Source: Candidatus Thalassarchaeaceae archaeon (GTDB taxonomy: Archaea; Thermoplasmatota; Poseidoniia; Poseidoniales; Thalassarchaeaceae). From it: a stretch of DNA of 64,000 nucleotides. A program made the translations under genes and the position numbers. Each line of letters opens with the position of its first letter. Position 1 is the stretch's first letter. The DNA is taken from NCBI GenBank assembly GCA_943841885.1, contig CALSZZ010000002.1, positions 278,262 through 342,261 on the forward strand. Reading direction: 5' to 3'. The notes beneath the pieces were generated by a model that was not told the origin of the DNA, made no database searches, and was given only the letters and a program-made list of their open reading frames with translations. Below are positions 841 through 64,000 of the stretch, piece after piece.

Positions 841-858
841 AAAATATCACCTTTTATT

Positions 859-2028: not shown

Positions 2029-2864
2029 CCTTCCTCCAATGCGGCCATAGACCTAAACAGGTCTAGATGTTCTGGAACATCATGTACTCTGATTATATCA
2101 ACTTCTTTTGTTGGTGACATAGCCGCAACACCCAATGTCCCTGCGAGTCTATTTTTGGTTTCATTCCTTCCTAATAAATCGCCGAACATTTTTTTCCTAC
2201 TCACTCCCCACATAAGTGGCATAGAATTATCAGAAATTATCTCTCTCCCTGCTGAGAGAAGTTTTAAATTGTGTTTTAGTAATTTACCAAATCCTATTCC
2301 CGGATCATTGATAATATTTTTACTTTCTACTCCAGATTCTATTAATTCCTCGCTAACTCCTCTCAAGTATTGTTTAACTTCTGTAACTACATCTTCATAA
2401 ATCGGGTTATTTTGCATATTTCCAGGTATTCCTTTCATATGCATTATACAAATTGGACATTTATTTTCCAATATCACATTTTTCATTTCAGGATCTGATA
2501 ATGAAGAAACATCATTCACCATGTCTGCGCCATATTTCAGTGCACTCATTGCAACTTTAGATTTTCTTGTATCTATGGAAATTCCAATGTTTGGTAACTC
2601 ATCCCTAATTATCTCGATTGCTGTTGAAACTCTATTAATCTCTTCTTCTAATCTTACTTCAGAAGCACCGGGACGAGTTGATTCGCCTCCAATATCAATC
2701 CAATCAGCACCATTTTCAGCCATTAATATTGCCTTCTCTGATATTTCTTCTAGATTATTAACTCTAGATTTTTTATAAAATGAGTCTGGGGTGACATTAA
2801 TGATGCCCATTATTCTAGGAAAACCATCGTTTCGGCATTTTATAATAGGTCGCCAGTCAGCCAT
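2025..2864 (-). CDS. folP: Dihydropteroate synthase
   Basis: FolP condenses 6-hydroxymethyl-dihydropterin pyrophosphate with p-aminobenzoate (or a related arylamine) to give dihydropteroate. The 279-residue protein shows the full set of motifs: MGIINVTPDSF near residue 20, the pterin-binding DIGGESTRPGA near 57-67, SIDTRKSKVA near 97-106, NDPGIGFGK near 186-194, GVSRKKMFG near 220-228 and a closing IRVHDV. The start is supported by a GGAGGA ribosome binding site six bases upstream. Its stop overlaps the TraB-family start. Together with FolB, a FolM-like SDR and a pterin dehydratase elsewhere in the window, it indicates a largely bacterial-style folate or pterin route. Confidence 0.95.
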   Translation of the reverse strand: MADWRPIIKCRNDGFPRIMGIINVTPDSFYKKSRVNNLEEISEKAILMAENGADWIDIGGESTRPGASEVRLEEEINRVSTAIEIIRDELPNIGISIDTRKSKVAMSALKYGADMVNDVSSLSDPEMKNVILENKCPICIMHMKGIPGNMQNNPIYEDVVTEVKQYLRGVSEELIESGVESKNIINDPGIGFGKLLKHNLKLLSAGREIISDNSMPLMWGVSRKKMFGDLLGRNETKNRLAGTLGVAAMSPTKEVDIIRVHDVPEHLDLFRSMAALEEG

Positions 2865-2918
2865 CTTATCCTCCTATCCTACGTATCCTTTATGATGTGA
2901 CAGACATGCAACCCTGTA

Positions 2919-3569
2919 ATGGCTATGGGAGAGGACATAGGTGATGAACTCTTACAAAGTAGTAGTGGACTATCTAATAATCAGGCCCCAGATGGGCAAA
3001 CTCTATTGATAATGGATTCAATAATACAGAGATTAAAACCAAAAGACTCCCATCATGTTAGGGAAATGATAAATCAAAGAGGATTGATGTCAGGTGCACT
3101 AATGATGACTAGTGCTTTATTTTGGTGGATATCGATAAAAAAAGGCGGAAATACCGTCAATGACTCTGAAATTCCCTCATCTATGATTGGTCAATTTGGG
3201 TTTGAAACTCTAAGTTTAGTGGTTGCTGTAATAATTTTTGTATCAACTTTTGTCGTCGTAATGGGGAGGGAAAAAGGAAATGCTACTATTTCAAATATAG
3301 GTGGTTTATTAATCGTCCTAGGAATATTCTACATAATAGAGCCGTTAATTCTTCATTATGATGAATTAGGTGCCGAATCTGCTTTATTTGCTTCTGGAAG
3401 ACTATTCACACTCTCAATTATGGTATATTTAGGCTCAAAATTCTTTTTTGATGCCTTACTTCTTCAATGGGTTAGTTCAAGTATGCTTAATATGGATGTG
3501 AATATTTCTTCACCTTTTGAAATAACTGGTGATCAGGGACATACTGATGAAGAGGACCCTTACGCATAA
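2919..3569 (+). CDS. Four-helix membrane protein of unknown function
   Basis: I do not recognise this 216-residue protein. It has a polar N-terminus (about 60 residues), then about four hydrophobic segments near residues 62-78, 97-116, 126-144 and 160-180, and a short acidic C-terminal tail. No catalytic motif is visible. An in-frame ATG two codons downstream (2925) is an equal candidate start; neither has a clear ribosome binding site. It lies five bases upstream of trm56 and probably heads the trm56-carA-carB transcription unit, divergent from folP. Confidence 0.75.
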   Translation: MAMGEDIGDELLQSSSGLSNNQAPDGQTLLIMDSIIQRLKPKDSHHVREMINQRGLMSGALMMTSALFWWISIKKGGNTVNDSEIPSSMIGQFGFETLSLVVAVIIFVSTFVVVMGREKGNATISNIGGLLIVLGIFYIIEPLILHYDELGAESALFASGRLFTLSIMVYLGSKFFFDALLLQWVSSSMLNMDVNISSPFEITGDQGHTDEEDPYA

Positions 3570-35451: not shown

Positions 35452-38400
35452 ATGGATGTGTCATTTGAGAAATCTGACAATGGCGTCCATCTCAGAAAGA
35501 TACGTTCAGCTATATTCTTTAGTTTAGTTATGCTTTGTGCTTCATTATCGGCTTTAGAGTTTGGAATTTGGAAGGCTATGGCTACAACTGACCAAGATGG
35601 CGACGGATTAAGCTATGGTCTTGAATTCTTAATTAATACTCAACCTCAAGATTGGGATACGGATAATGATGGGTTACCCGATGGTTGGGAATGGCAATAT
35701 GGGCTAGATCCACTGTCTTCTTTGGGTAATAATGGATCCACAGGTGATCCAGACTTAGACTCATTGAATAATTTAAATGAATATTTATACTCAATTCCTT
35801 CTAATTGGGACTTTTCAGGAACTCCAAATGAATTAGATAATGGCGTATGGTGGAATGGTACTGTACCTGTAAGTAATTGGGATGAAGAAAGTGCTATGCA
35901 ACTTCTTCAAGGTTCAGGAGGAGACGGTTTCGATGAAGATCCAGTTGGAAATATATGCGCCGATACCTTTGATAACGATGGAGATGGATTGGTGGATGAT
36001 TTCGATAATGATAAAGATGGAGATGCTGATTGTTCTTCAGATGATGATGATGGCGATGGTCTAATTGATGAAGATGTAAATGGTTGGGATACTGATGGCG
36101 ACGGAATCCCCGATGGCTGGGAAGTGGCATATGGGCTAGATCCTACGTCCAATTCTAATATGGATGGAACATTCGGTGATCCTGACGGTGATGGATTAAT
36201 CAATTTGTATGAATATATTAATCCAGCATGGAATACGAGAAATGGTAGCACTTTCCCTCCCACTCAATATTTTAGGCCGGGCCCTGTAAATATGACATTC
36301 ACTACATCTCCATGCAATCCCGTTCTTGAATTAGGCCCAGGGGGCTGTCAAATATTTACTGCTGAGGTTGATGGAATAACTCAAACAGATCCTCAGAATA
36401 ATGATACAGACGGTGACGGTCTGAATGATTCTCATGAGGCTTTAATTCTGTTAACAGATCCAACAGAACCTGATACTGATGGTGATGGAATACCTGATGG
36501 TATTGAAGTAAACGGTCTATACGGAGATCCGGAACAACCTTCCGATCCACGTGATAATAATACCGATGACGATCATCTTGATGATGGTGAAGAAGATACA
36601 AACGGAAATGGGATTATCGATGAAGGTGAAACAGATCCAACTAGGATAGAAGATGAAGGAGATATTGATAATGATGGATTACAAAATTGGGAAGAAAATC
36701 TAACTTGTACCTTTTGGGATAATCCTGATTCAGATGGAGGAGGAATAAGTGATGGCGATGAATTAGATTTTATGAGATCCACTAATCCTTGCATTTCTAC
36801 TGTTAATCTTGAATTCATAGTATTATCATGGGATTCTAATGTGAATACTTTACAACTAAATTCCACAGAAAATATAAATCCAAACCCTGTTGATTGGAGA
36901 CAAAATCAAGCCCCTATGGCATATTATGTTTCTTTATCAGGTAATTTAACAGGTTTCAGATTTAGCAGTATATTTGGGGACACTTTAAGGGGTGTAGATA
37001 CTGAAATGCCTTTAGGTGTAGCTTCAATAATTATTACGAATGGTTCATGGTGTTGGAATGCTACTGCAGGGGCTATTAATGATCCTCACTGTGATGATGA
37101 TTACCCTGACCTAGATTCAGACGGCTTAGCAGATTGGGAAGAATTAGAAGGTACGTGGGGATTTGTTTCAAGAATAAATATGACAGATTCAGACGGTGAT
37201 GGTGTAGATGATTTATCGGAAATTCAAAATTCAACTAATCCTATGGAACCTTGTCATAATTTATTGGATACAGACGGCGACGGATTAAATAATTATTTCG
37301 AAAATAACACAGGTTGTAGTTTATCATTTGGAATATCTCCTGGTAATATGACATTAGATACTTATCTCACACTGTGGAATCAATCTGATTCTGATAATGG
37401 AGGAGTTTCGGATGGTCAAGAGTATCTCGATGGAACTAATCCACAAAATAATCCTGCTGATGACATTAACCCTACAGATACCGATGGCGACGGGATACCA
37501 GACACTATAGAGCAGGATATTGGTACTGATTGGTTAGATCCAGATACAGATGGCGGGGGAATCCCTGACGGCCAAGAATGTCCAGAATCATTCTGGTCAA
37601 CAGATTGCCTGGATTCTACTTCTGATCCTTTCAATTCCAGTGACGATATTGATTTCAATTCTCTATATTTTTCAGCTTATAACCTGTCCTCAGGAGCAGA
37701 TCCAAGTCTGAAACATTACTGGAGATGGCATACTTATGATTCTTACACTGGTGTTTCATGGGGCGTAAATTCTTCACTTACAGGAAATACTGTAATAACT
37801 CCAGCCTCCAACATCAGTCAAGGAGTTTCAGATCCTGCTTTCTGGAATTCATCTTCTGCAACTGATTGGGAGTTAGTATTTGATAGTGGATTATTAACTC
37901 CTGGTATTGAATTAATAGCCCCATATAATGTTTTTGAATTTGATAGTTGGACAGAATTTACTGCAGGATTAAATTTCTCAAATTATACGCGTGATATTAT
38001 CATTGATAATTCTAATATAGATTCTTTATTTATTTCTGCACCTGAAATTATTTTCTCCTCAGAAATAAGGGAAAACTCAACATTTTTTACCGCTAGCCCT
38101 TATGCTACTGACCTTCCTGATGACTATCTCTCTAGTGCCGGGCAATTAGTAAATAATATTACTCAACAAGTAATAAATAGTTCCGGGGCGATTTCTGCAT
38201 GGGATAAAATTCTTGCAATACAAGACTTCATAGTAAACGGCAATGAAACATTCACTTTCTTGCGGAACCATGATGGATCTTCAAGGCCCAGTGATTTAGG
38301 CATGGAAAGTGATTTGTCTCATTGGATTCTAAACTCTTCACTTGAAGGAAGTTGTGATGAATTCACATCTTTATTCGCTGTTATGTTGAGACATGCAGGA

Positions 38401-41400
38401 ATGCCTAGTAGAAAAGTTACTGGTTTTGCAGAAGGTGATTGGAATGGTAAATCCTTTGATATTTATGGGAAAGATTTTACTTGGTGGGTCGAAGTACACC
38501 TACAAACGAATCAAAATCAAGGCAATTTGGATATGGGTTGGATTCCTTTTGAAGCATGCCCTGATATGTCCTTAGTCGAGGTTACTAACGTATCATGGTC
38601 GCCTGATACATTGAAACGTGATTTAATTGGTGAAAACATTTCTGTTGATGGTGTATTAAAGTTTGTTGATAATTCATCAGTAGCACCAGAAATTGACTTA
38701 TCTCTTTATTTAATTTCTCCATTAGAAGTATCAAATATTCCTGGCTCGGCTTCTTTAAATGAATATCTAGTCGCTACTACAACTACTGATGAAAATGGTC
38801 TTTTCAATCTATCAGGACTACCTGATGAAATTATTAGCCCTGGTTATGCTTCATTGGTAATTCAGACATCTAAGAAAAATTATGTAGGAGATCAAGGCAT
38901 TAGTTTTTCATGGACAATTAATATAACTGATAATGTAAATATTAGTATTCTTGAACCTATGCCAATCATAGAACCTATGCTTGGTGTTGGAGTAAATACA
39001 ACTATTTCAGGACAAATGTCATGGGCAAGTAGTCCAAAAATAGATCCTACACTAGTTGATAATTTACAACTAGAATTAAGTTATTCTACTTCTCTTGATG
39101 GTGATGTAATTATATCAACCGAGATAGGAGCAGGAGGGTATTTCGAATTTATTGTCCCAATACAAGATAATGAGCCACTTGGAATTATTAATGCTACATT
39201 GGACTTCTTTGGTTGGCATCAAGATGATTTTAACAATTTAACAAATCCATTGTATCATGCTAATCCAAAATCATTAACACTACCTCTTAATATAACTCCA
39301 TCTCCAAATATGTCTATAACTCTTGAAAGTAGTAATATAAATAATACAATAATCGATATTAATTCTTTCATTTTTCTTAATGGAACTGTTCTTAGTCGAG
39401 GGCTCAATCCAAGTTCATTGAATGGTACATTATCATTAGATATGCGTAGATCTGATATGAATGGACCTTATGTAAATCTAAAAAATTGGAATTTAAATAC
39501 GTCATCCTGGACAAGTAATCCAGGAGAATTTGAGATTGTGTGGTTCTTCAACGAATCCGAAGTACCAATACCTGCAGGACTGGTAGAAGTTAAATTCCAA
39601 TTTAATGCCGACAATTTATCTGCTTCTGATCAGGAAACATTTTCCGATACGTTTGGAATCAGGAGTGAAATATATTTCAACTATACACTTGTTGCTGATA
39701 TGAGAGGGACGCTTATTGATGTTGATGTTATTTTATCCGATCATACTGGAACTTCATTTGCAAGCTTTTTAGGAAATTATACTCTAGACTTTAATGGTAC
39801 ACAGGTTTGGAATGTTTCCGATCCACCTACTCCCAAATTATTAGTTGAATGGACTCCATCTTTGGATATAGTCCCTGGAGACTATTCTTGGGAATTAAGT
39901 TACAGCGGTACGACATGGCTTAAACCATCAAATATTGTTGATCAAATTAGAATTCGAGGTAGGGCCAATGTAACTACAACTATTGGATCAGAATGGTCCC
40001 AGGGCGGAGATTTGAGTAGTCCTAACTGGATTAGTGGTATTGCTAGAGATATCGTTCTAGGTAATGCTATAATTGGAAATAATTCTTCTATATCTCTTAC
40101 TTTACAAGTTCCTTCTAATTTACCACCTTCGCCTGATGGTTTTCCTCCTGCTCCAATAGTTTATGACTTGGCATTTGGTTGGATAGATGAACAAACAGGA
40201 GAGTATAATCTATCATTTGTGATGCCAGGGGAAATCGCTTCGGGAGTTTATGATTTAAGAATTGATTTAGATTTCTCGATAAATCCACCACCTGGAGGGA
40301 GGTATTATCAAGATAATTCTGTTTTATTAATTCAAGCCGGGATACAATCTGAGTTCTTAGTCACTACGAATGATTCAGTAGCCATTGTAGTTGCTGGTGA
40401 AAATATACAATTGAATGTTACCGTTAATGACATTGCAGACTTTTCACGACTTTCTAATGTCACTGTAGAAATTTACTTCGATTGGGGGGGGCCATCGCAG
40501 AATTTGTTACAGATAGTCCAAACTAATAACGACGGTACAGCTTCATTTAATGCTTTAATACCATCAATCACTGTTCCAGGCTATTATGAATTAAGAATTT
40601 TCGCACCCGATGACCTAACAGATAACTTAGATGATGAAAATGCTGGCCGCTGGCTCAGTCATGAGATTTTTGTTAATTTAACCGTACAAGTACCTAGTTT
40701 AGTGCAGATTAATTCAATACCTTCTGAAGTTACTGCACTTCAATTTTTTACAGTTTCAGGAGTGGTGATGGATTCAGTAGATGCAAATAGAACTGTCCAA
40801 GGGCCAGTTGATATTGAGATATTTTTCTTGGACGATCCCGAAGAAATTTTGATTTCCGACTTTACTACAAGTATAAATGGAAGTTTCACTATCTCAGTTC
40901 CTACAGATGTCTCCGGAGATGGAGTTTCTAGTGGCTTAAAGATATTAATAGTTAGTGTAGTTAATGATTCAAGTCCATTCTACCTAACTGGAACTGGCGA
41001 TACTAATATCTTAGTGCGTGGAATACCAAATTTTGTTGATACTAGTCCTTTTATAAATACTGTAGCGGATAGAGGAAGCTCGATTTCAGTTGCAGCAACT
41101 CTTGTAGAATTCAATGACAATAATAGGCCATTAAGTGACTTTTCTGTTAATGTTAAATTTCATGATACGTGGTTGGGTGCCAACATAACTGGTGAAGAAG
41201 GAGAAGTTGATTTTACATTCACTATTCCTAATAACCATCCTTTAGGCCTAATAAATGTATCATTTTTCTTTAATGGCTCCGAAACTTTACATTCTACTAT
41301 CAAGATAATTAATACAATAACTATCAGGTCTCCTACATCGATTGAAATTTATCCAATAGTCGCTAATCCTTTTCCAGGGGATTTCTTTAACATATCAGGT

Positions 41401-44391
41401 TCATTAACTTCTGATAATAATTCTGCTTTAACTAATAGGCAAGGGACTTTACTAAGTCCCGCACTTACTTTCTCTATAGATGGCGATTTTAATACATTCA
41501 TCGTTTCTTCAATATCTATTGACTCTGATGGTAACTGGTCGGCAGAAATTAGATTAGATTTATCATTCCCTAGAGGGGTTCATGGGATTGATGTTGTGTT
41601 TACTCCTGGAGTAAGTTATTATGGAGAAAGTACAAATAATTCAATTTTTGATAGTAAAGGGTATTCATTACTATCAATCCTTAGTCCACTAGATCTCGAT
41701 CCAGACAGTAGAACAATAAGAGGAGATTCAATTTCTATCAATATTTCAATTATTGATAATGCAGGCTCAGCAGTAATCGCAGTACCATATGACGTAAGTA
41801 TTGATGATGTTATTATGGAAACAGGATTTACTGATTCTAATGGGGAATCAGCATCAATTATTTCCATAAATCCATTTACTACACCTGGGCCAATTACTAT
41901 TACTGTATCTTTTGATGGTATTAATGGTTCAACGGGACTTCTTGGGGACGAATCATTTACTAGGTTAGTAATATTAGCTCCAACAGTTATAGAAATATTA
42001 GAAATTACAGGCTCATTTATTGCTGGTGAGAAAATTACATTCCAAGGCACACTAACCGATGAACATGGTGAGAATCTACTCGGTCCTGAAGCATCTTCCG
42101 GGGGAATTTTACATCTTTTTATAGACGACTTAGATGTTGGTCCAATGTACACCACTCAATCAAATGCGTCTACTACCATTTGGAATGTAACCTATGATGT
42201 TCCACCAGACATTAATTATGGAGGGCATTCAGCTTCTGTAAGTTTCTTGGGGGGATTCACATGGGTAGATCCTATGGGCCAAGGCGATTCCCTAAATCCA
42301 GAATACTATTTACCATCGTTAGCAAATATTAATTTTAATATTTCACAATTATCTCAAGTTATAATCACCACTCCGCCTAGTGATGTTGATCGTAACGATC
42401 TAGTCTTAATTGAAGGCCAACTAACAGATAAAGTAGGAAGGGAAATACCTAGTAGAAATTTAGAAGTATTTATGAATGAACAATTCATGACAGATTTGAT
42501 AGTTGATGAAAATGGTGAATTTAGTGTCTATATTCCAATACCTCCAGATATGGATTTAGGGCCACAAATCGTGAAGATTATTTTTTCAGGTGAAGAATTC
42601 ATCCTTCCCTCAAATTCTTCTACAATTTTTGTAGTGCATGGGCCTGTATTCCCATTTGTGTATACTCCTAATTCTGCAGCCGTAGGCGATTCTCTATTAA
42701 TCGAAGGTTCCGTTAAAGATAATTTACAAGATGGTTGGTTATCCAATCATACAATAGAAATTCTTGTTGATGGAGTTTTGATGGGAATAACTACTTCTAA
42801 TTCTACAGGTTATTGGGATTATGAATGGACTATACCCGAATCTCTAGATATTGGCAATCACACATTAACGGCTTTCTCTCCCTCTCAAGGATATCATCGG
42901 CAAGGAATTTATGAAACAAACCTTACAGTAGCATATCATACAGTTATTTCTCTATCAATTGAATCCAATTCAATGACAAGAGGTGATCATTGGAAATTCG
43001 ATGGTAGGTTGTATGAGGGAGATACTCCTTATCAACTAGGACTAGAAAATAGAGAAATATCTGTATTATTGAATGGAGTAGAAATATCAAAATTATTTAC
43101 TAACAATGATGGTTCTTTCATGTATAATCATTCCCTGGGATATCAAATATCTAGAGGGATTCATGACGTTAACTTCTTATTCGACGGTGAATTATTTTAT
43201 CTTCCCTCTAATACAAATATTACGACATATGTTAAATCAGATATCAGTATAGAATTATCTCCGATAACTCATACAATTATACGTAGTTCAGAAAATCAAC
43301 CAATAAAAATACAAGGCTTTGTGAGGGAAATAGGTGGGCAATTTAACGTATTTGAAAATTTGACTCTTAAGTTGTATTCTGGAGAAAGTGATTTACCATT
43401 TAGAAACGACCCATGGGCTAGTTCTGGAACACTTAATTTTCAAATAATTTCTAGTGCTCGTGAATTTATGGAACCAGGAATAAATAATTTAGAACTCTTA
43501 ATCCAGGCAGATGAATCTCGTTATCTAAATGGGGCCTCAATCAATGTAGATGTCACTGTTCTTGTTTCTGTTGATTTTGATTTCTCCAGTCTTGATTTAT
43601 CTAATGGCCAGAGAATACTACGAGGTTCTGTTAATCTAACAGCAAATGATACCGGGGAGCCTTTGCCCAATATTCCAATGTCTGCTTTACTAGTTAACGG
43701 CTCCACTACACATTTTTCTTCTATCAAACTAACAGATGATAATGGTCGTTTTAATTATGAATTCAAATCATTATCTCCGCTACCTCCTTTATCTGATAAA
43801 GCATCATGGGGAATTTTAAATGTCCAATTATCATCAGATTCAGATTTTATTGACCCACTTAGCCTATCTGGACTTGTGTTGCAAGGTAACTTGGAGATAA
43901 GTTATGAAGTAACTTCCGATAAGTCATTTTTCCAGTCAACAATTTTTGGAATTATGTTTGTAATTTTAGTATCTTCATTAGTTGGTACTTTTGTAATCTT
44001 TAATCGACGAAAGATGTCTGAAATATCTGAAATAGCTGGAATATTCAATTACGCTTCAGAACTTCTTGAAGCTGGTGATGAAATGAGGGCAGCAATATTC
44101 GAGTGTTACCAAAATCTTTGCGAGGTCTTCATGCGCAGAGGCTTTTTACGCCGTGGTTTCGAAACAGTTCGAGAGTTCGAATTGGCAATTAGGCTAGCGT
44201 TGCCTGAAATTAGTGAAAATTCTCTGGTAGCTCTAGACAGAATATTTGAAGAGGCCCGTTATTCGAGTCATATTTTGGGAGAATCTGATCGTAAAAATGC
44301 TCAACACGCACTTTCTTTAGTACTAAATGAATTAGAACAGTTGCAAGACGTACCCACTAGAAGAGAGGAATCAATTGAACTAGAAAACTAA
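35452..44391 (+). CDS. Giant surface protein: calcium-type repeats, degenerate transglutaminase domain, Ig-like repeats, DUF4129
   Basis: The 2979-residue protein has an N-terminal membrane segment (about 18-37) and then DxDxDG calcium-type (thrombospondin-3-like) repeats to about residue 725. A transglutaminase-like domain follows near 900-1045. Next come about 1750 residues of Ig-like repeats, a membrane helix (about 2826-2850) and a cytoplasmic DUF4129-like domain (about 2855-2960) containing RAAIFECYQNLCEVF and EEARYSSH. In the transglutaminase core the cysteine is present (Cys968 in GSCDEFTSLFAVMLRHAG). The usual HAWVEV reads TWWVEV (Thr1010 for His), and the aspartate is Glu1034. It may therefore be inactive or altered. 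DUF4129 normally accompanies transglutaminases, so the ancestry is clear. It probably sits on the cell surface as a long calcium-stiffened stalk. Confidence 0.9.
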   Translation: MDVSFEKSDNGVHLRKIRSAIFFSLVMLCASLSALEFGIWKAMATTDQDGDGLSYGLEFLINTQPQDWDTDNDGLPDGWEWQYGLDPLSSLGNNGSTGDPDLDSLNNLNEYLYSIPSNWDFSGTPNELDNGVWWNGTVPVSNWDEESAMQLLQGSGGDGFDEDPVGNICADTFDNDGDGLVDDFDNDKDGDADCSSDDDDGDGLIDEDVNGWDTDGDGIPDGWEVAYGLDPTSNSNMDGTFGDPDGDGLINLYEYINPAWNTRNGSTFPPTQYFRPGPVNMTFTTSPCNPVLELGPGGCQIFTAEVDGITQTDPQNNDTDGDGLNDSHEALILLTDPTEPDTDGDGIPDGIEVNGLYGDPEQPSDPRDNNTDDDHLDDGEEDTNGNGIIDEGETDPTRIEDEGDIDNDGLQNWEENLTCTFWDNPDSDGGGISDGDELDFMRSTNPCISTVNLEFIVLSWDSNVNTLQLNSTENINPNPVDWRQNQAPMAYYVSLSGNLTGFRFSSIFGDTLRGVDTEMPLGVASIIITNGSWCWNATAGAINDPHCDDDYPDLDSDGLADWEELEGTWGFVSRINMTDSDGDGVDDLSEIQNSTNPMEPCHNLLDTDGDGLNNYFENNTGCSLSFGISPGNMTLDTYLTLWNQSDSDNGGVSDGQEYLDGTNPQNNPADDINPTDTDGDGIPDTIEQDIGTDWLDPDTDGGGIPDGQECPESFWSTDCLDSTSDPFNSSDDIDFNSLYFSAYNLSSGADPSLKHYWRWHTYDSYTGVSWGVNSSLTGNTVITPASNISQGVSDPAFWNSSSATDWELVFDSGLLTPGIELIAPYNVFEFDSWTEFTAGLNFSNYTRDIIIDNSNIDSLFISAPEIIFSSEIRENSTFFTASPYATDLPDDYLSSAGQLVNNITQQVINSSGAISAWDKILAIQDFIVNGNETFTFLRNHDGSSRPSDLGMESDLSHWILNSSLEGSCDEFTSLFAVMLRHAGMPSRKVTGFAEGDWNGKSFDIYGKDFTWWVEVHLQTNQNQGNLDMGWIPFEACPDMSLVEVTNVSWSPDTLKRDLIGENISVDGVLKFVDNSSVAPEIDLSLYLISPLEVSNIPGSASLNEYLVATTTTDENGLFNLSGLPDEIISPGYASLVIQTSKKNYVGDQGISFSWTINITDNVNISILEPMPIIEPMLGVGVNTTISGQMSWASSPKIDPTLVDNLQLELSYSTSLDGDVIISTEIGAGGYFEFIVPIQDNEPLGIINATLDFFGWHQDDFNNLTNPLYHANPKSLTLPLNITPSPNMSITLESSNINNTIIDINSFIFLNGTVLSRGLNPSSLNGTLSLDMRRSDMNGPYVNLKNWNLNTSSWTSNPGEFEIVWFFNESEVPIPAGLVEVKFQFNADNLSASDQETFSDTFGIRSEIYFNYTLVADMRGTLIDVDVILSDHTGTSFASFLGNYTLDFNGTQVWNVSDPPTPKLLVEWTPSLDIVPGDYSWELSYSGTTWLKPSNIVDQIRIRGRANVTTTIGSEWSQGGDLSSPNWISGIARDIVLGNAIIGNNSSISLTLQVPSNLPPSPDGFPPAPIVYDLAFGWIDEQTGEYNLSFVMPGEIASGVYDLRIDLDFSINPPPGGRYYQDNSVLLIQAGIQSEFLVTTNDSVAIVVAGENIQLNVTVNDIADFSRLSNVTVEIYFDWGGPSQNLLQIVQTNNDGTASFNALIPSITVPGYYELRIFAPDDLTDNLDDENAGRWLSHEIFVNLTVQVPSLVQINSIPSEVTALQFFTVSGVVMDSVDANRTVQGPVDIEIFFLDDPEEILISDFTTSINGSFTISVPTDVSGDGVSSGLKILIVSVVNDSSPFYLTGTGDTNILVRGIPNFVDTSPFINTVADRGSSISVAATLVEFNDNNRPLSDFSVNVKFHDTWLGANITGEEGEVDFTFTIPNNHPLGLINVSFFFNGSETLHSTIKIINTITIRSPTSIEIYPIVANPFPGDFFNISGSLTSDNNSALTNRQGTLLSPALTFSIDGDFNTFIVSSISIDSDGNWSAEIRLDLSFPRGVHGIDVVFTPGVSYYGESTNNSIFDSKGYSLLSILSPLDLDPDSRTIRGDSISINISIIDNAGSAVIAVPYDVSIDDVIMETGFTDSNGESASIISINPFTTPGPITITVSFDGINGSTGLLGDESFTRLVILAPTVIEILEITGSFIAGEKITFQGTLTDEHGENLLGPEASSGGILHLFIDDLDVGPMYTTQSNASTTIWNVTYDVPPDINYGGHSASVSFLGGFTWVDPMGQGDSLNPEYYLPSLANINFNISQLSQVIITTPPSDVDRNDLVLIEGQLTDKVGREIPSRNLEVFMNEQFMTDLIVDENGEFSVYIPIPPDMDLGPQIVKIIFSGEEFILPSNSSTIFVVHGPVFPFVYTPNSAAVGDSLLIEGSVKDNLQDGWLSNHTIEILVDGVLMGITTSNSTGYWDYEWTIPESLDIGNHTLTAFSPSQGYHRQGIYETNLTVAYHTVISLSIESNSMTRGDHWKFDGRLYEGDTPYQLGLENREISVLLNGVEISKLFTNNDGSFMYNHSLGYQISRGIHDVNFLFDGELFYLPSNTNITTYVKSDISIELSPITHTIIRSSENQPIKIQGFVREIGGQFNVFENLTLKLYSGESDLPFRNDPWASSGTLNFQIISSAREFMEPGINNLELLIQADESRYLNGASINVDVTVLVSVDFDFSSLDLSNGQRILRGSVNLTANDTGEPLPNIPMSALLVNGSTTHFSSIKLTDDNGRFNYEFKSLSPLPPLSDKASWGILNVQLSSDSDFIDPLSLSGLVLQGNLEISYEVTSDKSFFQSTIFGIMFVILVSSLVGTFVIFNRRKMSEISEIAGIFNYASELLEAGDEMRAAIFECYQNLCEVFMRRGFLRRGFETVREFELAIRLALPEISENSLVALDRIFEEARYSSHILGESDRKNAQHALSLVLNELEQLQDVPTRREESIELEN
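35590..37640 (+). repeat. Acidic DxDxDG repeat region within the giant surface protein
   Basis: About a dozen irregular copies of a GAT-ACT-GAT-GGC-GAC-GG-type DNA motif code for Asp-Thr-Asp-Gly-Asp-Gly loops followed by Ile/Leu-Pro-Asp-Gly or Asn-Glu. This is the calcium-binding type 3 repeat pattern. Copies diverge at the DNA level, so the region is old and selected as protein rather than a fresh tandem array. The opposite strand gives His-rich open frames that are artefacts. Confidence 0.8.
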
Positions 44392-54582: not shown

Positions 54583-57500
54583 ATGGAAAAAAATGAAGAG
54601 GCGGCAAAAGGTAATTTCTTTTATCAAGATATTGCTTCTGTTCCTGTAATATTGGCTACATTAATGGTGCTATATTTCGGAGTTAGTTTTGCTGTCAATG
54701 GAGATATAGGGAATGAAGGATATGCTAACATCTTTATTCTACCTTTATCCGCTGCATTAGCATCGGTTATTGGTAGAATAAGTACATCTTATTCTATGCC
54801 AAATTTTTCTAATTATCGTTCCTTTATCGCTTCTACAGCCATAGTTATATTTGCTTTTTTAATAGATTTTATTGCAAATTTTGATAATAACGTTTTCTTT
54901 CTTACTTTTACACTAGTTGGTATATTATCGGTATTTTTATCCGAAGCAAAACGTATAGAAGAATCTGACTTAATTCTCACAACTATTATTGGTTTCCATC
55001 TAGCTGTTTCTTATGCTTCTAATTTAATTTTCGATCCAGGCTTAGATATAGACTCTCAGAGAACTGATATTGGTATTGCTTTCATTTCATTTTGGTTAGC
55101 ATCTATATCAATTGGATTTACATTAATGGGCTTATTAAAGGGGACATTAAATCAAGCAGGAAAAAGCATTATCTTTTCAGAGATACCTAATTTTCCAAAA
55201 AATCGTTCTTTCGTAATATTTTCATCCATCATATCTATTGTTTACATTATTCCATTGTTCCAATTTGATAATTATGAAAATCTAGGAGTAATATGGGCTG
55301 TTTCGACAAATGTAATAATCTTATTTTATGCTCTCTGTTACTTTGAGAAATGGCATGTCCTTGGATCTATGGTTCTTATTAATTGGTTTATTTTTACTAT
55401 GGCTCATCTTCAAGAGATTGGTAATACATTTTATCCAGGAATATTCGAAGAAGAAAGTTTCACAGGCGCATTTTCATGGGCATTCATAACCTTTTGGCTA
55501 AATGTCGGAGCGATAACTATAGCTTCAAAAGGATATTTTGGAGATATAGCACCAATGCGAAGTAAAAGTAAATTGAGGATATGGTGGGATTCTAATTATT
55601 ACTCAATTTTAATTCCTCTCTCATTCATTGTAGCTCTGACTGTAAGAGTTGTTTGGAATGTAATCCCTGCTATGAATGCCCCTGGGACTGGGACATGGGA
55701 TATGTCTGGAGGATCTGATCCTTGGTACATGAAACGTATCGTGGATTACATCTTAGCAAATAATAGTCACTTTATTTTTGATGCTGATAGGGCTTATCCA
55801 ATGGGAGCGATAAATCCTAGGCCACCATTGTTTACTTGGTCTTTAGCATTAGGTGGCATGGCATTATCATGGATTTTAGAATCAGATAACACCGGAGAGA
55901 TTGTATGGTGGAGTATAGCTTCTTTACCTGCCATTTATGGCGCACTCGTAGTTTTCCCTGTCGCAGGCATAGCATACAAAGTTCATGGAAAAAAAGCTGC
56001 AATAATTTCTGCCTGGCTTATAGCACTAATGCCGGGCCATATTAGTCGTTCCACTTTTGGAATGGTAGACCACGATTCTTTTGCAATTTTACTTCTATCA
56101 ACTGCATTTTATTTTTGGGTTAATGCTCTTTCACATATGAACCAAGAAAGAATTTTTTCAAAAACTTCTTCAAATCCATTATATCTTCTCGCTGGAATAA
56201 GAGAAACTTGGGTTAGAAATCCTAGGGTGATGTCTAACGCAACCTTAGCGGGAATCGCCTTTGCTGTGATGGCTTTAGGATGGAAAGGTTTCGTTTACGG
56301 GCCTGGAATTTTATTCTTGGTATTTTCTTTACAGGTATTATTCAATTTATTTCGCTCCAAGGATAGCTTACAACTCACATCCGCAAGTTTACAGATGTTA
56401 TTTACGCTATTTTTAATCCCACTTCCTTTCTACGCCTGGCCAGGTTTAAATTTAGTCTTAGATCCGAGTGGACTTCAACCACTTTTCTATATTATAGGCT
56501 TTACATTTATACTAGGTTGGACGACTTGTTCATTCAGGGATAAACCATGGTTACTGGTTCTCGGCGTTGGAACTATTCTAATTTCACTTATTTTATCACT
56601 ATTGTATATTTTACAAGAGGCTAATATATATGCTGGCTGGGATATTCTCTTCTCTGGTGGTTTTTACTTTGATAAGAATAAGATTTTTGGAACTATTGGA
56701 GAAGCTCAAGCACCTAGCAGAGGAGTTTTATTTGCATCCTATGGTCCAATTGTATCATTAATAGGACTAAGTTATGCATTTGTATTCCTTTGGAGGGGTG
56801 TAAGAACAAATAAGATGCCATTCACATTACTAGGATCTTGGGGAATTATTTCGACATACATGGCCTGGTCTGCGGGCAGATTCATAATCAATGCAACTCC
56901 AGTAATGGCAATTTTGGGGGGCATTGGAATTGCAATGCTCTGGCAATCAGCCAACTTTGGAAACTTTACTAAAGAATGGCGAAATTCTGGTATCGGAACT
57001 CCTCGTGCAAGATTCAATTCTCTTTGGCCAGCTACCAAAAAAAGCGTTGGTGTACCTGTTTTAGTTATTGTATTCATGCTGGTCTTTACTCAACATATAA
57101 CTTACGGTATAGATTCAGGAATACCTAGGAATTCTCAATCTGCTACAGATGTAGATAAAGCTATTTACGACATAACTCCAGATATCCTAAGGGAAAATTT
57201 ACTTGGCGAATTCTCAATACTAGGGGGCGGAGACTACAATCCTAATTCGGCTAATGGTTTAGAATATATGGGGACATTCGGCCCAAGTTTCAATTCATAT
57301 GGTTGGAATGATGCTTATGCTTGGCTTGAAGAGCAAGACAGAGATATAGGATTTAGTAACCGTCCAGCATTTTTATCTTGGTGGGATTATGGTTTTAGTG
57401 CTTTAGCACAAGGACAACATCCAACAGTAGCAGACAACTTCCAATCAGGAATACCTCACAGTGGAGGTATGCTTCTTTCTCAAGGGCAAGATGATACAAT

Positions 57501-60500
57501 CGCTCTATTCATAGCTACTCTTGCTATGGGTGACAAGAAATACAATAATGAAGTAAGCCAAGATTTATTGGCATCATTGTCAGGAACTATGAGCACCCTT
57601 CAAATAGAAGAATTTAAAAATATTATTGAGAATACACAATCGTCATTTGTATTAGAAAGAACAATGAAATTGAGAGCATCTTCTGATAATGTCGAATTAC
57701 TTAGTGGATATTTATTAGATGCCAATGGCAACCCTTCAATTATTGAAGAATGGGTTGTGGTTAATGAAGACGGAACTAGAACCTCAATGGGCCAAAATCA
57801 ATCAGCTGCTCTGTCTCTATACAATCAATCTAGGAGCTCTTCTTCAGTATCTTCTACTATGGCATCATGGAATGAAGATATGCCTCCTAGTCATTATTAT
57901 ATTGGTAATTATAAATATACCAATGACTTGATTAATGACTTTGACTCACCCTCAACTCCTATTCATAAAACAAATTCAAAGTTAGCAATGTTAAGGAATT
58001 TCCTAGTTACGGCATTCGATACTGATCAATTAGTAGATATTTATCATGGGCTCTCTTCAATAACTTATTCTATCCAAGATTATGAAAATTCATTAGGAGA
58101 GAATATTGAAAGGAATAATGAAATAAGATATTTTGCAGTTGATAACCGCTTATTCCCAAAAGGGGGGGCATATTATGAAGATTATTCATATCATCGTAGT
58201 GAAACTACTGGCATTTTCCATGCTCCAACAGGACTTTCAGGCTTAGATATGGATGATTATATAGCTACTTTTTATCAATCTCAGAGAGGAGACGGACCAA
58301 TTGTACCTAGAAGTCCACAAGAATACAATGATGCTTATTTGTCAGATTTAGAATTACAACAAAGTGGCGCATTATCTGATTCTACACAAGTAATTAGGTA
58401 TGTGGATATAGACTATCAACATCAAGAGCAATTCTTTGAAACCATGGTTGCTAGGACTTATGTGGGCTATGGATCTTCAACTTTAGGTCTGGAAGGAGAT
58501 GCAGAAACACCTTCAGTATGGGTTAATCCTCAAACAACCGGAAAGATCGGAGCACCAGGTTCCTACTTACAGAATGCTTGGGCCCTTCCTGGTGCTATGA
58601 TGAATCATATGGTAATATCGAACTGGTATGATAATGATTATGATGACGATGGTATACTCAATTCTGTCGACGATTCTAAATGTCTAGATATCATTGAGAA
58701 TAATACGGTATCAGATATTTCTTCAGGAGATAATAAAATAGAACTAGAAGATGCATCTCTGCTGCCATTCGACGGAGGGGCTTATCTCTATCACATAGAA
58801 GGAAACCTCTCCATTAAATGGACTGGTAAAGATGGCAATACATTAACAGGAGTTACAGGTATATCTAAGAATGTAACTTCAAATTCATTACTTTCTCACA
58901 ACCCAGACCCACTTTGTAGTTCTATTTACGACTCAAATCATTTTGTTAAAATTCTGAAATACTACAGTGGTGCAACCCTTGAAGGAACTGTTTCACTCGA
59001 TGGAGAGGGAATTGTACCCAATGCACGAATACTAATTGAAAGAGATGCATTCAGTGGAGAAGAAATGCCAGATGAGAATGGAAATGTAATTGACGAAGAT
59101 CCAAGGACATATTGGGTGCCAATAGGACACACTGATGCAAATTCAGAAGGAGAATTCTCATTCACAGTACCTTCAGGTAAAATACGTGTTTCAGCATTCA
59201 TTGGAGAGACTAATCTCGATGCAGCCCGTGCTTCAATTATGAGTTCAGATGTTGGGCAAACAATGTTTGAGTTGACGATTGAAGAAAATAACCAAAGAGC
59301 AATTAATCCTGTCACAGGAATATTGGGTAATGTTTCAGGATCTACATGGTTATCTGAAACTATAGTTAACGTATCTGAGACGCAGGGGCATAGTAATGGT
59401 GTCGAAAAAGTTGAAGTATCGATTGATGTATCTTCATCTTCATCATCTGGTGTATTGTCCTGGACCGGAAATTCAGAATTCAATGGTGCACCTATATTGG
59501 ATGCGGAAGTAATTCTTTCTCCTTCGTCAGACCTAATTGAATTAGATGACTATGTAGTAACTACTTCTAACGGCTCTGTAGACGGTGAGAACTTACAATT
59601 CCAAGGAACTGGTGAGGTAATATTTAGTGGCCCTGGTAGTGTCCGCTCTGAAAATATTCTGTCCGTCTCAGATTTTACTGGAACGCATATTCAAAGTATA
59701 TACAATAATCATAGCGTTTCAGGAGATGGATTATTTACTGGTGTAGGAAAAATTACAAACGGGATAATAAATGATATCATAGAAATTAATGATTGTCAAA
59801 ATGATTCTATCCCAACAGGGGAAGATATCTGTAAATTGGCAGATGGAGAATATCTGATGGATGGCATCTTCAATGCATCAGGAAAATATACCTCTGTAGG
59901 AGTATCTACATTTACTAGGGGCCTCAATCAAGCAACTTTGCTAGGTTCGGGAATATTTACTACTAGTGAAGAGACCAATCTTGATTCTTACGGGATAATT
60001 AACGGTACTGGAGTATTTTCTGGTTCTGGTTTATTTAGTGGCCCAATGGTTCAACCTGGTACATTCACAGTGAATAATGCAATACCCGGATTATACGATA
60101 TAACTATCATCCTTGAAGATGGGACATCAGTTGACTTAGATAGTACTTTCAATGTACCACTACTAGGATCCTTAGCGCCCATTTTAATTGATGTTCCAGC
60201 AGGATCAATATCTGGTTCATTAGTCGATACTTCGGGAGAAGTTGTTAATTCATCAATTTCACTCATTCTAAATGATAATATTTCTTCTTCTAAGGATGCC
60301 ACTGAGGATTGTTCGATTGTTAATTTCGCACCGTGCTTAATTTATCCAGATGAACAAGGAAAGATATTGTTTGGCCCAATTGCTCCTGGTGAATATATTG
60401 TAGAGATTGATTCAGATATGGATGGAATGCCTGAAGTAAGTGAATTATATATCTTTGATACAAATTCACCTTCCGATGTCTCTTTCCCGTCACCTTTACC

Positions 60501-63500
60501 AGATACCTCAGATATTTATTTTACAGTATCTGATGAAGGCGTCAATGTAGCAAATCTAAATATTTCTTTTTATCAGGAAAATATGCCAGATCATGAAATA
60601 GCTGTAAATTATGACTCTGAATCTAGTAATTACTTCGTTGAATTGACTCAAGGAACATGGATATTAAGTCATGATATTGATGAAAACAAACAAATTTGGA
60701 AGAGCATAGATGTTGATTCTGAAGATATGAATTTGGAGATTAATATAGAAATTAGTAAATTAATTTCGGGTATTGTTAAGAATACTATACAAATAGACTC
60801 TATTACCGGAGAGCCGATAGAAAATGTACTTCCAAATACATTAGTTTCTTTCTTTTGGGATGGTTTAAGTACTTCGGCATATACAAATTTAGAAGGTCAA
60901 TTTGAAGTCACTTTACCTGTGAATTCTACAGTAGATGTTTCAGTGGAGTATTCACTTGAGAAAGCGTATTCTTCCAGTGCTAGATTTATTGTAAATGATG
61001 TATTATCAGATACTCAAAATATTACTTTATTGGTAGAAGAATCAGTGATAGTTGACGGCACTGTGAATATGGATGTCATTGGTAATTATTATACGGATTC
61101 ATTGAAAGACTGGAGTGAAATTAATGTTATTGCATCACAATCACCCGAAAACTCTAGTTTACCTGACACTAGGGCCATTGTCGATTCCAGTGGTAATTTC
61201 CAAATGTACTTAAAAGAAGGAGATTGGAAATTTACATTGATAGACAGCCCTGTTCTAAGTGATGAACAAACTATTACAATAAATAATACAAATAAGATAG
61301 TTGACTTACTTACACAATCTAATCACAGCACTCTAGTTATCGATTTTTACCTAGATCAAAGTGGAGATTCTAATATTTCTAACGGTACTTTGGTTTCTTA
61401 TCCCTTTGCCATTAAATCGTTAAATCCGTTAATTCCTACAAAAGAAATTTCTTTGGATGATCCTGAATGGATTTCTGAGGGGCGTGCTGAAGTAAATCTA
61501 ACTCCTGGATCTTACTCAATTGTTATTGATAGGCCAAATCCTAATTCTGGAAACTTATTTGACACACTTTATACTACAGACGACAATATTAGAGTTGGCT
61601 TAATAGCTGAGAATATTAGTACTTCAATAGCCTTTGAACCTAACTGGCTTACTAATATAACTTTCAATAATGAAAGTGGAGGTCCTCTTTCTGACCATCT
61701 TGTAAGATTCAAGGATATGGAGTCAGGATGGTTATTATCTTTTATGACTAACTCTTCAGGATCAATTTCTGAATATATTCCTGAAGGTGAATGGATGGTT
61801 ATTGTCGAGAACTTTGAATCCAGCCCGGGAATTTATGAAAGTCTAAGGCAATCAATATCAATTTCTTCGATATCTGCTGGATTAAATTCAATCATGTCCA
61901 CTGCAGAAGTTGCCATGGTAAATATCATATTGTCTAATGATGGAGCTCCATTATCTGATATTCAAGTTAATCTCGAAAATACTGAAAGAGGTAGTCTAAA
62001 CTCCCTATACTCTAATGACTTAGGAATAATCGAATTAAAGATAGAACCTGACTACTGGAACTTAGAATTAAATTATACTGATTCTGAAGGGGTAATGTGG
62101 ATAGTTGAAAGCATGCCAATCTCCGAATCTGGTCTAGTTGCTGGAAATAATACTGATGTTTTAGTAAATGTTACTAAATTAGTTATACTAAAAGGTACTG
62201 TATTTTGGGATCTTAATGATAACCAACAACCTAATTTTGGAGAAGGAGTTTCGAATGTTACTGTATCATTAGAATCAGGTACAGAAAATAAACATCTGAC
62301 AACAGATGAAGATGGCGCTTGGTCGATATATTTGCTATTTGGAGGAACATGGAATATTTCTACCTATATTGATGGTTTCAGTAATGAAACATCCTCAGTA
62401 TCTCTTATATCAGATTCCAATTCAAAACATATACAAATTACAGCCGGTTCTGTTTCTGTTTCTGGTAGCATATCTTACATTGATGAAAATCAATTTAATC
62501 AAATAAAGGATGATTTGACATTTATCTTAGTTCCTTCGGAAGGAATAGTCAGGGAAAGAGTAACTCCAAACATGATAATGGATGAAAATAATTCTTGGAA
62601 TGGGGAGTGGAATGCTATGTTAGAGCCAGGAGATTGGATCGCATGGGCGTTTGTTTCTTCTTCAAATGAAGTTCCATATTTAGTGTCGATCGACAATCTT
62701 GATGTCGGTGTCGATGGTGGATCAATTGACTCAGAATTATCTCTTGGAGGTAAATTAGTATTGGACACAGAATGGCTGGATTATGAAGGTACTCCTCGCT
62801 CACTGACTGATATAGAATCTCATAATATAGTAATCAACTTACAATCCTCAGGAATAAGTTGGGATGAATCATTAGATTCGGAAGGTCTACTGGAATTAAT
62901 ATTACCAGTAGGGAGAATTGATACTTCAAGTTCTTTCAACATAACTCAAGAGGATAGAAATATGGATTATTATGGTGGACAGGGAGCAACTATTAGGCCA
63001 TCTCAAGAGACACCTATTACAACTCTCATGATTGATCGTTTATCTAAACAAGATATCTCTATAACTAACTCAGGTGTTGATAATGTAATGCTTTCCTTGA
63101 ATAATACAAACTGTAATTTAGATTGTAACTATGATAATGTTGTTTTCAAGTTAGATATAGAATATCTTGGCCATCAAGCCTTCGACAGTTATTCAATTAG
63201 TTCAGTAGTTCCTGGTGCAGACGGCCAAGATTGGTCTGTTGAATTCAAGGACTCAAACAACTCTTGGGTATCAACCGCATCAATTGAACTCGGCTTAGAA
63301 AACTCTCTTAATTTGGACGACTTTAGCGTTCGAGTTATCCCACCTAATGCATCTACAGCTCATCATTTAATTAATGGTCATCAAATTAAGATTATTTTTG
63401 TTACCGATCAGGGATATAGTTTAGAACATCCATTGTTGGTAAACGTGCCTCAGAATAATCTATTCTCTTCAATAGGTTACTCTGATGAAATAATCGGAGT

Positions 63501-64000
63501 CGCTCCTGGCGAACCGTCAGTTATAGACTTTAATTTCATTAATGATGGAAATGGTGATGACGTATTTACTTTTGATTTTTCAGTAGACTCTCTAGAAAAT
63601 TGGAATGTTGCAGGAATTAGTTCTCAACCAATTGCTCCTTTTACAGAAGGGCAAACATCTGTTACAATTACTCCTCCATCTAATATGTCTGACGACCCTT
63701 ATACTTTGAGTCTTTTAGTTACCGATTCAGACGATAATTCCTACGGACCATTTGATGTTCTTGTACAAAAATCATCACCTATATTGTCTTTGTCTTCATC
63801 TACGAAAATCCAATTGTTAAGTGGTGACTCTGGTCCAATTTCAGGTGAATTTGCAACATACTTGGTGAAAGTTGAGAATAATGGATTAATTGACGCCGAT
63901 TCAGTCGAACTAAATATTATTCTCTGTCAAGATATATATTGTGTCGAGAAGATCAATGTAAACGGTTCGGATATTCGTAATGTTCCAGCTAATGGAGAAT
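54583..64000 (+). CDS. aglB: AglB/STT3 oligosaccharyltransferase with a giant C-terminal ectodomain, 3' partial
   Basis: AglB transfers lipid-linked glycans to asparagine in N-glycosylated proteins. The frame is open to the window edge (3139 codons). Residues 1-890 hold many membrane helices with the external-loop motif GGSDPWYMKR (376-384, Asp379), the second acidic motif GMVDHDSF (493-500), and NPRPPL (411-416). The STT3 signature WWDYG is at 933-937, within LSWWDYGFSALAQGQHPTVADN. The usual soluble C-terminal domain seems to end near residue 1345, where a TSP3-like DYDDDGILNSVDD occurs. At least 1790 further residues of carboxypeptidase-regulatory-like, Ig-like and NEW3/CARDB-like repeats follow. 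Typical archaeal AglB has under 1000 residues. The end of the protein, and any final anchor, are beyond the window. Confidence 0.93.
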   Translation, partial: MEKNEEAAKGNFFYQDIASVPVILATLMVLYFGVSFAVNGDIGNEGYANIFILPLSAALASVIGRISTSYSMPNFSNYRSFIASTAIVIFAFLIDFIANFDNNVFFLTFTLVGILSVFLSEAKRIEESDLILTTIIGFHLAVSYASNLIFDPGLDIDSQRTDIGIAFISFWLASISIGFTLMGLLKGTLNQAGKSIIFSEIPNFPKNRSFVIFSSIISIVYIIPLFQFDNYENLGVIWAVSTNVIILFYALCYFEKWHVLGSMVLINWFIFTMAHLQEIGNTFYPGIFEEESFTGAFSWAFITFWLNVGAITIASKGYFGDIAPMRSKSKLRIWWDSNYYSILIPLSFIVALTVRVVWNVIPAMNAPGTGTWDMSGGSDPWYMKRIVDYILANNSHFIFDADRAYPMGAINPRPPLFTWSLALGGMALSWILESDNTGEIVWWSIASLPAIYGALVVFPVAGIAYKVHGKKAAIISAWLIALMPGHISRSTFGMVDHDSFAILLLSTAFYFWVNALSHMNQERIFSKTSSNPLYLLAGIRETWVRNPRVMSNATLAGIAFAVMALGWKGFVYGPGILFLVFSLQVLFNLFRSKDSLQLTSASLQMLFTLFLIPLPFYAWPGLNLVLDPSGLQPLFYIIGFTFILGWTTCSFRDKPWLLVLGVGTILISLILSLLYILQEANIYAGWDILFSGGFYFDKNKIFGTIGEAQAPSRGVLFASYGPIVSLIGLSYAFVFLWRGVRTNKMPFTLLGSWGIISTYMAWSAGRFIINATPVMAILGGIGIAMLWQSANFGNFTKEWRNSGIGTPRARFNSLWPATKKSVGVPVLVIVFMLVFTQHITYGIDSGIPRNSQSATDVDKAIYDITPDILRENLLGEFSILGGGDYNPNSANGLEYMGTFGPSFNSYGWNDAYAWLEEQDRDIGFSNRPAFLSWWDYGFSALAQGQHPTVADNFQSGIPHSGGMLLSQGQDDTIALFIATLAMGDKKYNNEVSQDLLASLSGTMSTLQIEEFKNIIENTQSSFVLERTMKLRASSDNVELLSGYLLDANGNPSIIEEWVVVNEDGTRTSMGQNQSAALSLYNQSRSSSSVSSTMASWNEDMPPSHYYIGNYKYTNDLINDFDSPSTPIHKTNSKLAMLRNFLVTAFDTDQLVDIYHGLSSITYSIQDYENSLGENIERNNEIRYFAVDNRLFPKGGAYYEDYSYHRSETTGIFHAPTGLSGLDMDDYIATFYQSQRGDGPIVPRSPQEYNDAYLSDLELQQSGALSDSTQVIRYVDIDYQHQEQFFETMVARTYVGYGSSTLGLEGDAETPSVWVNPQTTGKIGAPGSYLQNAWALPGAMMNHMVISNWYDNDYDDDGILNSVDDSKCLDIIENNTVSDISSGDNKIELEDASLLPFDGGAYLYHIEGNLSIKWTGKDGNTLTGVTGISKNVTSNSLLSHNPDPLCSSIYDSNHFVKILKYYSGATLEGTVSLDGEGIVPNARILIERDAFSGEEMPDENGNVIDEDPRTYWVPIGHTDANSEGEFSFTVPSGKIRVSAFIGETNLDAARASIMSSDVGQTMFELTIEENNQRAINPVTGILGNVSGSTWLSETIVNVSETQGHSNGVEKVEVSIDVSSSSSSGVLSWTGNSEFNGAPILDAEVILSPSSDLIELDDYVVTTSNGSVDGENLQFQGTGEVIFSGPGSVRSENILSVSDFTGTHIQSIYNNHSVSGDGLFTGVGKITNGIINDIIEINDCQNDSIPTGEDICKLADGEYLMDGIFNASGKYTSVGVSTFTRGLNQATLLGSGIFTTSEETNLDSYGIINGTGVFSGSGLFSGPMVQPGTFTVNNAIPGLYDITIILEDGTSVDLDSTFNVPLLGSLAPILIDVPAGSISGSLVDTSGEVVNSSISLILNDNISSSKDATEDCSIVNFAPCLIYPDEQGKILFGPIAPGEYIVEIDSDMDGMPEVSELYIFDTNSPSDVSFPSPLPDTSDIYFTVSDEGVNVANLNISFYQENMPDHEIAVNYDSESSNYFVELTQGTWILSHDIDENKQIWKSIDVDSEDMNLEINIEISKLISGIVKNTIQIDSITGEPIENVLPNTLVSFFWDGLSTSAYTNLEGQFEVTLPVNSTVDVSVEYSLEKAYSSSARFIVNDVLSDTQNITLLVEESVIVDGTVNMDVIGNYYTDSLKDWSEINVIASQSPENSSLPDTRAIVDSSGNFQMYLKEGDWKFTLIDSPVLSDEQTITINNTNKIVDLLTQSNHSTLVIDFYLDQSGDSNISNGTLVSYPFAIKSLNPLIPTKEISLDDPEWISEGRAEVNLTPGSYSIVIDRPNPNSGNLFDTLYTTDDNIRVGLIAENISTSIAFEPNWLTNITFNNESGGPLSDHLVRFKDMESGWLLSFMTNSSGSISEYIPEGEWMVIVENFESSPGIYESLRQSISISSISAGLNSIMSTAEVAMVNIILSNDGAPLSDIQVNLENTERGSLNSLYSNDLGIIELKIEPDYWNLELNYTDSEGVMWIVESMPISESGLVAGNNTDVLVNVTKLVILKGTVFWDLNDNQQPNFGEGVSNVTVSLESGTENKHLTTDEDGAWSIYLLFGGTWNISTYIDGFSNETSSVSLISDSNSKHIQITAGSVSVSGSISYIDENQFNQIKDDLTFILVPSEGIVRERVTPNMIMDENNSWNGEWNAMLEPGDWIAWAFVSSSNEVPYLVSIDNLDVGVDGGSIDSELSLGGKLVLDTEWLDYEGTPRSLTDIESHNIVINLQSSGISWDESLDSEGLLELILPVGRIDTSSSFNITQEDRNMDYYGGQGATIRPSQETPITTLMIDRLSKQDISITNSGVDNVMLSLNNTNCNLDCNYDNVVFKLDIEYLGHQAFDSYSISSVVPGADGQDWSVEFKDSNNSWVSTASIELGLENSLNLDDFSVRVIPPNASTAHHLINGHQIKIIFVTDQGYSLEHPLLVNVPQNNLFSSIGYSDEIIGVAPGEPSVIDFNFINDGNGDDVFTFDFSVDSLENWNVAGISSQPIAPFTEGQTSVTITPPSNMSDDPYTLSLLVTDSDDNSYGPFDVLVQKSSPILSLSSSTKIQLLSGDSGPISGEFATYLVKVENNGLIDADSVELNIILCQDIYCVEKINVNGSDIRNVPANGE

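Follow-up and report, generated by a model that had tools for sequence, protein, structure and literature searches.

The usual picture of archaeal AglB is that of a minimal enzyme with one subunit and fewer than approximately 1,100 residues. The eukaryotic oligosaccharyltransferase (OST) has accessory subunits (ribophorins, OST48) with lumenal beta domains and a C-terminal transmembrane (TM) helix beside STT3. The window analysed here, a stretch of 64,000 nucleotides (G000:C2:278262-342261), carries the gene of a predicted single-subunit N-glycosylation oligosaccharyltransferase of an archaeon assigned to Poseidoniia (Marine Group II, MGII, type) by its kinship with Marine Group III and Ca. 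Poseidoniia records. A single AglB match was found in its own genome, as in most relatives, and the protein seems to be the sole enzyme of the archaeon for putting sugar chains on surface proteins. It is like the AglB of A. fulgidus (3waj/5gmy) in the catalytic TM region and the WWDYG globular domain, but it has approximately 1,650 residues beyond the ordinary enzyme (hereafter, the tail), a C-terminal TM anchor, and an N-terminal membrane extension of the MGII type. Eukaryotic OST accessory subunits can be compared with the tail only in how they would work; theirs are separate subunits, and none of the hits that were read was a sequence match to them.

An initial annotation of the window had given about 1000 residues as the upper limit for known AglB proteins. 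This is correct for characterised enzymes, such as the A. fulgidus enzyme of 868 residues (PMC8342417), whereas the long form is common in Thermoplasmatota genomes. Like the tail, cell-wall stalk proteins, CnaB/SpaA-type pilins and alpha-2-macroglobulin-like strings consist of prealbumin- or Ig-like beta-sandwich domains, but the likeness is at the domain level with low TM-scores, and no enzyme is attached to theirs. NOMO1/NOMO2 of the multipass translocon (BOS complex) in the endoplasmic reticulum (ER) is also a prealbumin-like beta string ending in one TM helix and, unlike the window AglB, is not an enzyme. The NOMO rod is about 27 nm long (PMC8327139), and the protein determines the spacing of the ER and carries force (PMC8327139, PMC12262048). 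Prokaryotes are without BOS components (PMC9630114).

A continuous reading frame for AglB and its tail

The gene starts with the ATG at 54583 on the forward strand, and its frame is open for 3139 codons up to the window edge (54583..63999, residues 1-3139 of 3231). When the same contig was read onward, the stop was found after codon 3231, at window coordinate 64278, 278 bases past the window. The initial annotation had proposed looking beyond 64000 for a stop and an anchor, and the extended reading supplied both, the latter as a predicted C-terminal TM helix. There was no stop, frameshift or composition jump at the junction of the ordinary AglB and the tail, and GC3 was even along the gene (0.20-0.29). 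A match was observed in 39 of 40 relatives, and all of the genes of the same order that were read from ATG to stop (26/26) encode 3124-3238 residues. Across the class, 116 of 119 genomes matched, nearly always within one gene; the other order of the class has AglB versions of 2.3 kaa (Marine Group III). The search for the same fusion in related marine archaeal genomes was successful in both MGII and Marine Group III. When the window gene was compared with its nearest relative, the tail contained zero indels and its three parts gave dN/dS values of 0.084, 0.106, and 0.057, against 0.045 and 0.041 for two parts of the core. These low ratios (dN/dS 0.06-0.11) indicate purifying selection on the tail.

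The draft source genome comprises 6 contigs and is 80% complete, and the aglB frame is broken in the single-contig genome G025, which might speak for an assembly chimera or a missed stop joining two genes, as the initial annotation had considered for the junction. However, the break in G025 sits at a run of N, and further cases of the fusion come from the 26 complete MGII genes, from Marine Group III, and from three 'chromosome'-titled records (L140, L188, and L195). With every full gene of the order long and purifying selection acting on the tail, the fusion is not a chimera; we give this explanation next to no chance and regard it as refuted for practical purposes. The long AglB is a selected unit and a genuine single polypeptide, in agreement with the earlier proposal that AglB and the ectodomain share one frame.

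Extent of the ordinary enzyme and the N-terminal extension

The STT3/AglB TM catalytic region is located at 55573..57222 (forward strand, residues 331-880). Alignments placed the catalytic motifs GGSDPWY, DHD, and TIGE at residues 376-382, 496-498, and 704-707, respectively. The ordinary AglB C-terminal globular domain follows at 57223..59217 (forward strand, residues 881-1545) and contains WWDYG at residue 933 (57379-57393), which was invariant in 19 aligned relatives. Pfam STT3 (PF02516) matched residues 378-781 with 53.5 bits against a cut-off of 24.5 (E 3.6e-14), and the core profile matched the A. fulgidus AglB structure 3waj with an E of 1e-23. Hence, the motifs and the WWDYG signature named in the initial annotation were confirmed. 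NCBIfam TIGR04154 (archaeosortase A system-associated STT3) matched residues 344-967 with an E of 2.2e-47, but with 162 bits, below the curated cut-off of 450 bits, so that the protein is not assigned to that family. In the long AglBs of family f17 (L205-L211, 1851-1924 aa), WWDYG was unrecognisable by pattern search.

The ordinary enzyme had at first been taken to end at residue 1340 (base 58600). This position falls inside the ordinary globular domain, and the boundary had to be moved. A beta module around 'VKILKYYSGATLEG' (YYSGATLEG..., residues 1453-1545; 58939..59217, forward strand) is common to ordinary short AglBs. Since the 'YYxGAxxxG' module is present in both short and long AglBs, its end was taken as the end of the ordinary enzyme, and the globular domain is predicted to end at about residue 1545 (base ~59218), where the extra part starts. 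Profile alignment with short AglBs of the phylum stopped near residue 1538 with one set and near residue 1645 with another.

The N-terminal extension of approximately 330 residues (54583..55572, forward strand, residues 1-330) was observed only in MGII. By hydropathy, seven hydrophobic segments precede the usual first STT3 helix at about residue 342. No convincing relative of the extension was found in Pfam or the PDB. Families f13, f20, and f26 have N-terminal extensions of their own, apparently unrelated to that of MGII; a link with those of f13 or f26 was sought, and none was found.

Predicted membrane anchoring and domains of the tail

All TM calls were made from hydropathy. The STT3 bundle extends to about residue 835, and the next helix appears only at 3203-3221, followed by SRSTRRPGAPF. 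The C-terminus of AglB, which consists of one predicted TM helix and a basic tail, would face the cytoplasm according to the positive-inside rule, in which case residues ~840-3200 would make up a single outer loop held in the membrane at either end. The initial annotation had described a long stalk displayed on the outer face. An ectodomain on the outer face is consistent with our results, but an outward-displayed stalk is not; the tail is not a free stalk, because the C-terminal TM helix anchors it to the membrane at its other end as well.

N-X-S/T sequons were above the expectation from composition in MGII tails, weakly in the window protein (z 2.2) and more clearly in five others (z 3.3-9.2). 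The excess reached z 4.1-10.2 in the tails of f18, f24, f27, and L140; it was smaller in f30 (z 1.6) and absent in Marine Group III (z 0.7). As most of the tails tested had such an excess, the tail is probably exposed outside and itself glycosylated. Only two other open reading frames of the window had a z above 2. One is CDP-archaeol-synthase-like, with a slight excess (3 sequons, z 2.3). The other, at window positions 35452-44388, encodes a surface-type protein of 2979 residues with 84 sequons against 39 expected (z 7.9) and is likely to be a major N-glycoprotein.

The tail occupies 59218..63999 on the forward strand (residues 1546-3139 in the window) and runs on to about residue 3200. It is a string of prealbumin/carboxypeptidase-regulatory-like and Ig-like beta-sandwich domains. 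When 30 tails were searched with Pfam, CarboxypepD_reg was found in all 30, SdrD_B in 18, NOMO_5th and SpaA in 13 each, NEW3-type domains in 7, and CARDB in 6; in the window protein a CarboxypepD_reg domain lies at 62239..62424 (forward strand, residues 2553-2614). AlphaFold models, for which alignments of the window sequence and 45 homologues were used as the input, were nearly all beta, with a mean pLDDT of 67 for residues 1450-2480 and 73 for residues 2420-3139. Foldseek matched the first half of the tail to CnaB/prealbumin-type strings and the second half to Ig- or macroglobulin-like strings, both with low TM-scores. Strand counts lead to an estimate of about 16 domains, and scaling from the NOMO rod suggests that the tail, if straight, could reach about 40 nm. 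An insert at 59560..60042 (forward strand, residues ~1660-1820) is specific to MGII; it is absent from giant AglBs outside MGII and was modelled with low confidence.

The tails were compared by hhalign, starting after the shared module. The MGII tail matched those of f7/f25 over 1137 columns (E 1e-51), f11/f26 over 1225 columns (E 4e-48), f18/f8 over 1240 columns reaching the TM helix (E 8e-38), and Marine Group III over 878 columns (E 8e-25). The tails of f35, f27, and f6 had weak direct matches to MGII and near full-length matches to other long groups (Mmassil-f27, E 6e-42; Mmassil-f6, E 3e-42; DHVE2-f35, E 2e-78), and that of f17 was tied less strongly (Mmassil-f17, E 4e-28, 809 columns). 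Four large surface-protein sets and one reversed tail, used as controls, gave E values above 0.04, and a half-rotated tail was divided into two in-register matches. These matches and controls indicate that the order along the tail is conserved, beyond the domain type alone.

A single-sequence search of the PDB with a tail gave no matches. With the tail profile, the best PDB match was NOMO2 (E 9e-32), but the match repeated one profile region and was non-collinear. Furthermore, a control profile, built from unrelated CarboxypepD_reg proteins of this phylum, likewise ranked NOMO2 first (E 2e-18). A specific kinship with NOMO or the BOS complex was accordingly rejected, and NOMO is treated here as an analogue, without kinship beyond the domain type.

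Distribution in Thermoplasmatota and possible roles of the tail

Of the 243 genomes of the phylum that were searched with a profile, 230 contained AglB. The gene was read in representatives of approximately 40 families and in 80 titled records, which came from a scan ordered by similarity to a query from Thermoplasmatota. A long AglB (~1.85-2.7 kaa) with one C-terminal TM helix and a basic end was observed in most of the Thermoplasmatota families examined, including records of Marine Group III, Methanomassiliicoccales/Methanomassiliicoccus, DHVE2/Aciduliprofundum sp., and Ca. Haladaptatiplasma, among others; other families have short AglBs of 1.0-1.43 kaa without the C-terminal TM helix. In most examined families of the phylum, abundant ocean plankton and methanogens among them, AglB is thus two- to threefold the usual size and has a conserved, anchored outer part. 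In the core tree (64 sequences, quick method, unrooted), the length label required two changes, against approximately 17 for shuffled labels. The 19 short sequences formed one group (SH-aLRT 95), and L221 (1442 aa) represents one later shortening in which the C-terminal TM helix was kept. Deep in Thermoplasmatota, the tail would have been either gained or lost in a single event, and the unrooted tree fits either.

Open papers on AglB in Thermoplasmata, Marine Group II/Poseidoniales, Methanomassiliicoccus, Aciduliprofundum, and Thermoplasma did not mention the long AglB, which is no proof of its novelty. The enzyme family and the domain types were known already; what is new is their inherited, doubly anchored combination across most of the phylum. 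The finding also calls for caution with annotations that split or truncate long aglB genes. In the viral collection, only two contigs (IMG/VR L201 and L202, classed viral) had AglB, both of the ordinary length of 1083 aa. A record titled Flavobacteriaceae bacterium TMED121 (L131, NHFW02000028.1) contains an aglB resembling that of Marine Group III, probably as contamination of that bin.

The gene order in the source genome is purD, aglB, a membrane subtilase, and a large surface protein. The subtilase (Peptidase_S8, E 1e-38; L032:13574-14812) is membrane-anchored; its gene begins 34 bases downstream of the aglB stop and adjoins aglB in other MGII genomes as well. In a motif scan, purD was upstream in most MGII loci and a subtilase or surface protein was downstream in many; the scan saw no such order outside MGII.

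The initial annotation had raised a role of the tail in recruiting or scaffolding acceptor proteins, which is possible, and also a link to the cell envelope lattice; Cuniculiplasma (order Thermoplasmatales) has been reported without a distinct S-layer (PMC5155288). The interpretation that we prefer, tentatively and at somewhat less than an even chance, is that of an AglB with an inherited accessory ectodomain. The tail, probably itself glycosylated, would make a flexible rod or arch, some 16 domains long, that is tethered at its two ends and lies next to the catalytic site. As an accessory subunit built into the enzyme, it would retain emerging surface proteins close to the active site and hold AglB where export takes place. 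In the eukaryotic enzyme, separate subunits with lumenal beta domains are thought to play this part. Our confidence in this accessory function, which we infer, is modest: many families of the phylum have short AglBs that evidently manage without a tail, and the sequon excess is weak in the window protein and absent in Marine Group III. A bolder form appears unlikely, in which a NOMO-like, doubly anchored rod would make one polypeptide into a machine that replaces the eukaryotic accessory and translocon subunits, docks the enzyme to the export channel and handles surface proteins, MGII having added a second membrane module at the N-terminus. The testable question raised is what an oligosaccharyltransferase gains from a large accessory ectodomain, supplied in eukaryotes by separate subunits.

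The tail could instead have a chiefly structural role, as a beta-rod anchored at both ends that fixes a distance or carries load in the envelope as NOMO does in the ER, with the enzyme as only one of its anchors. The shared architecture and the top rank of NOMO2 among the PDB profile matches point in this direction, but that rank is non-specific, and such archaea are single-membraned, a second surface to space from not being evident; we consider this role unlikely, to about the same degree as the bolder form. We favour substrate handling over spacing alone, since in all long-form families the tail has remained fused to the enzyme, and since spacing requires a second surface. Somewhat less probable again is a passive, heavily glycosylated shield or part of a glycocalyx, made with the enzyme and also its substrate. 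A shield would suit the excess of sequons in the majority of tails (z as high as 10), with none of note in most other window reading frames. Against it, the window protein, f30, and Marine Group III have little or no excess, and the strict collinearity and the domain order kept across the phylum exceed what a passive shield needs. We are more doubtful still about cleavage after synthesis, with an ordinary AglB as one product and a distinct, membrane-anchored surface protein as the other, for which the adjoining subtilase is a candidate in MGII; many families have the long form although the motif scan showed no subtilase neighbour in them, and no conserved linker marks the boundary in the alignments read.

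Archaeosortase A is encoded in the source genome (G000:C3:84084-84911; TIGR04125, over the cut-off) and also in G025, G142, G130, G141, and G157. The last 100 residues of the window AglB had no NCBIfam match to a PGF-CTERM-type signal, and the protein was hence rejected as an archaeosortase A substrate. The AglBs of some other families (L085, L140, and L161) end in weak PGF- or Loki-CTERM-like signals, Loki-CTERM being over the cut-off in L140 and PGF-CTERM just under it in L085, and these signals suggest that the three proteins may be archaeosortase substrates.
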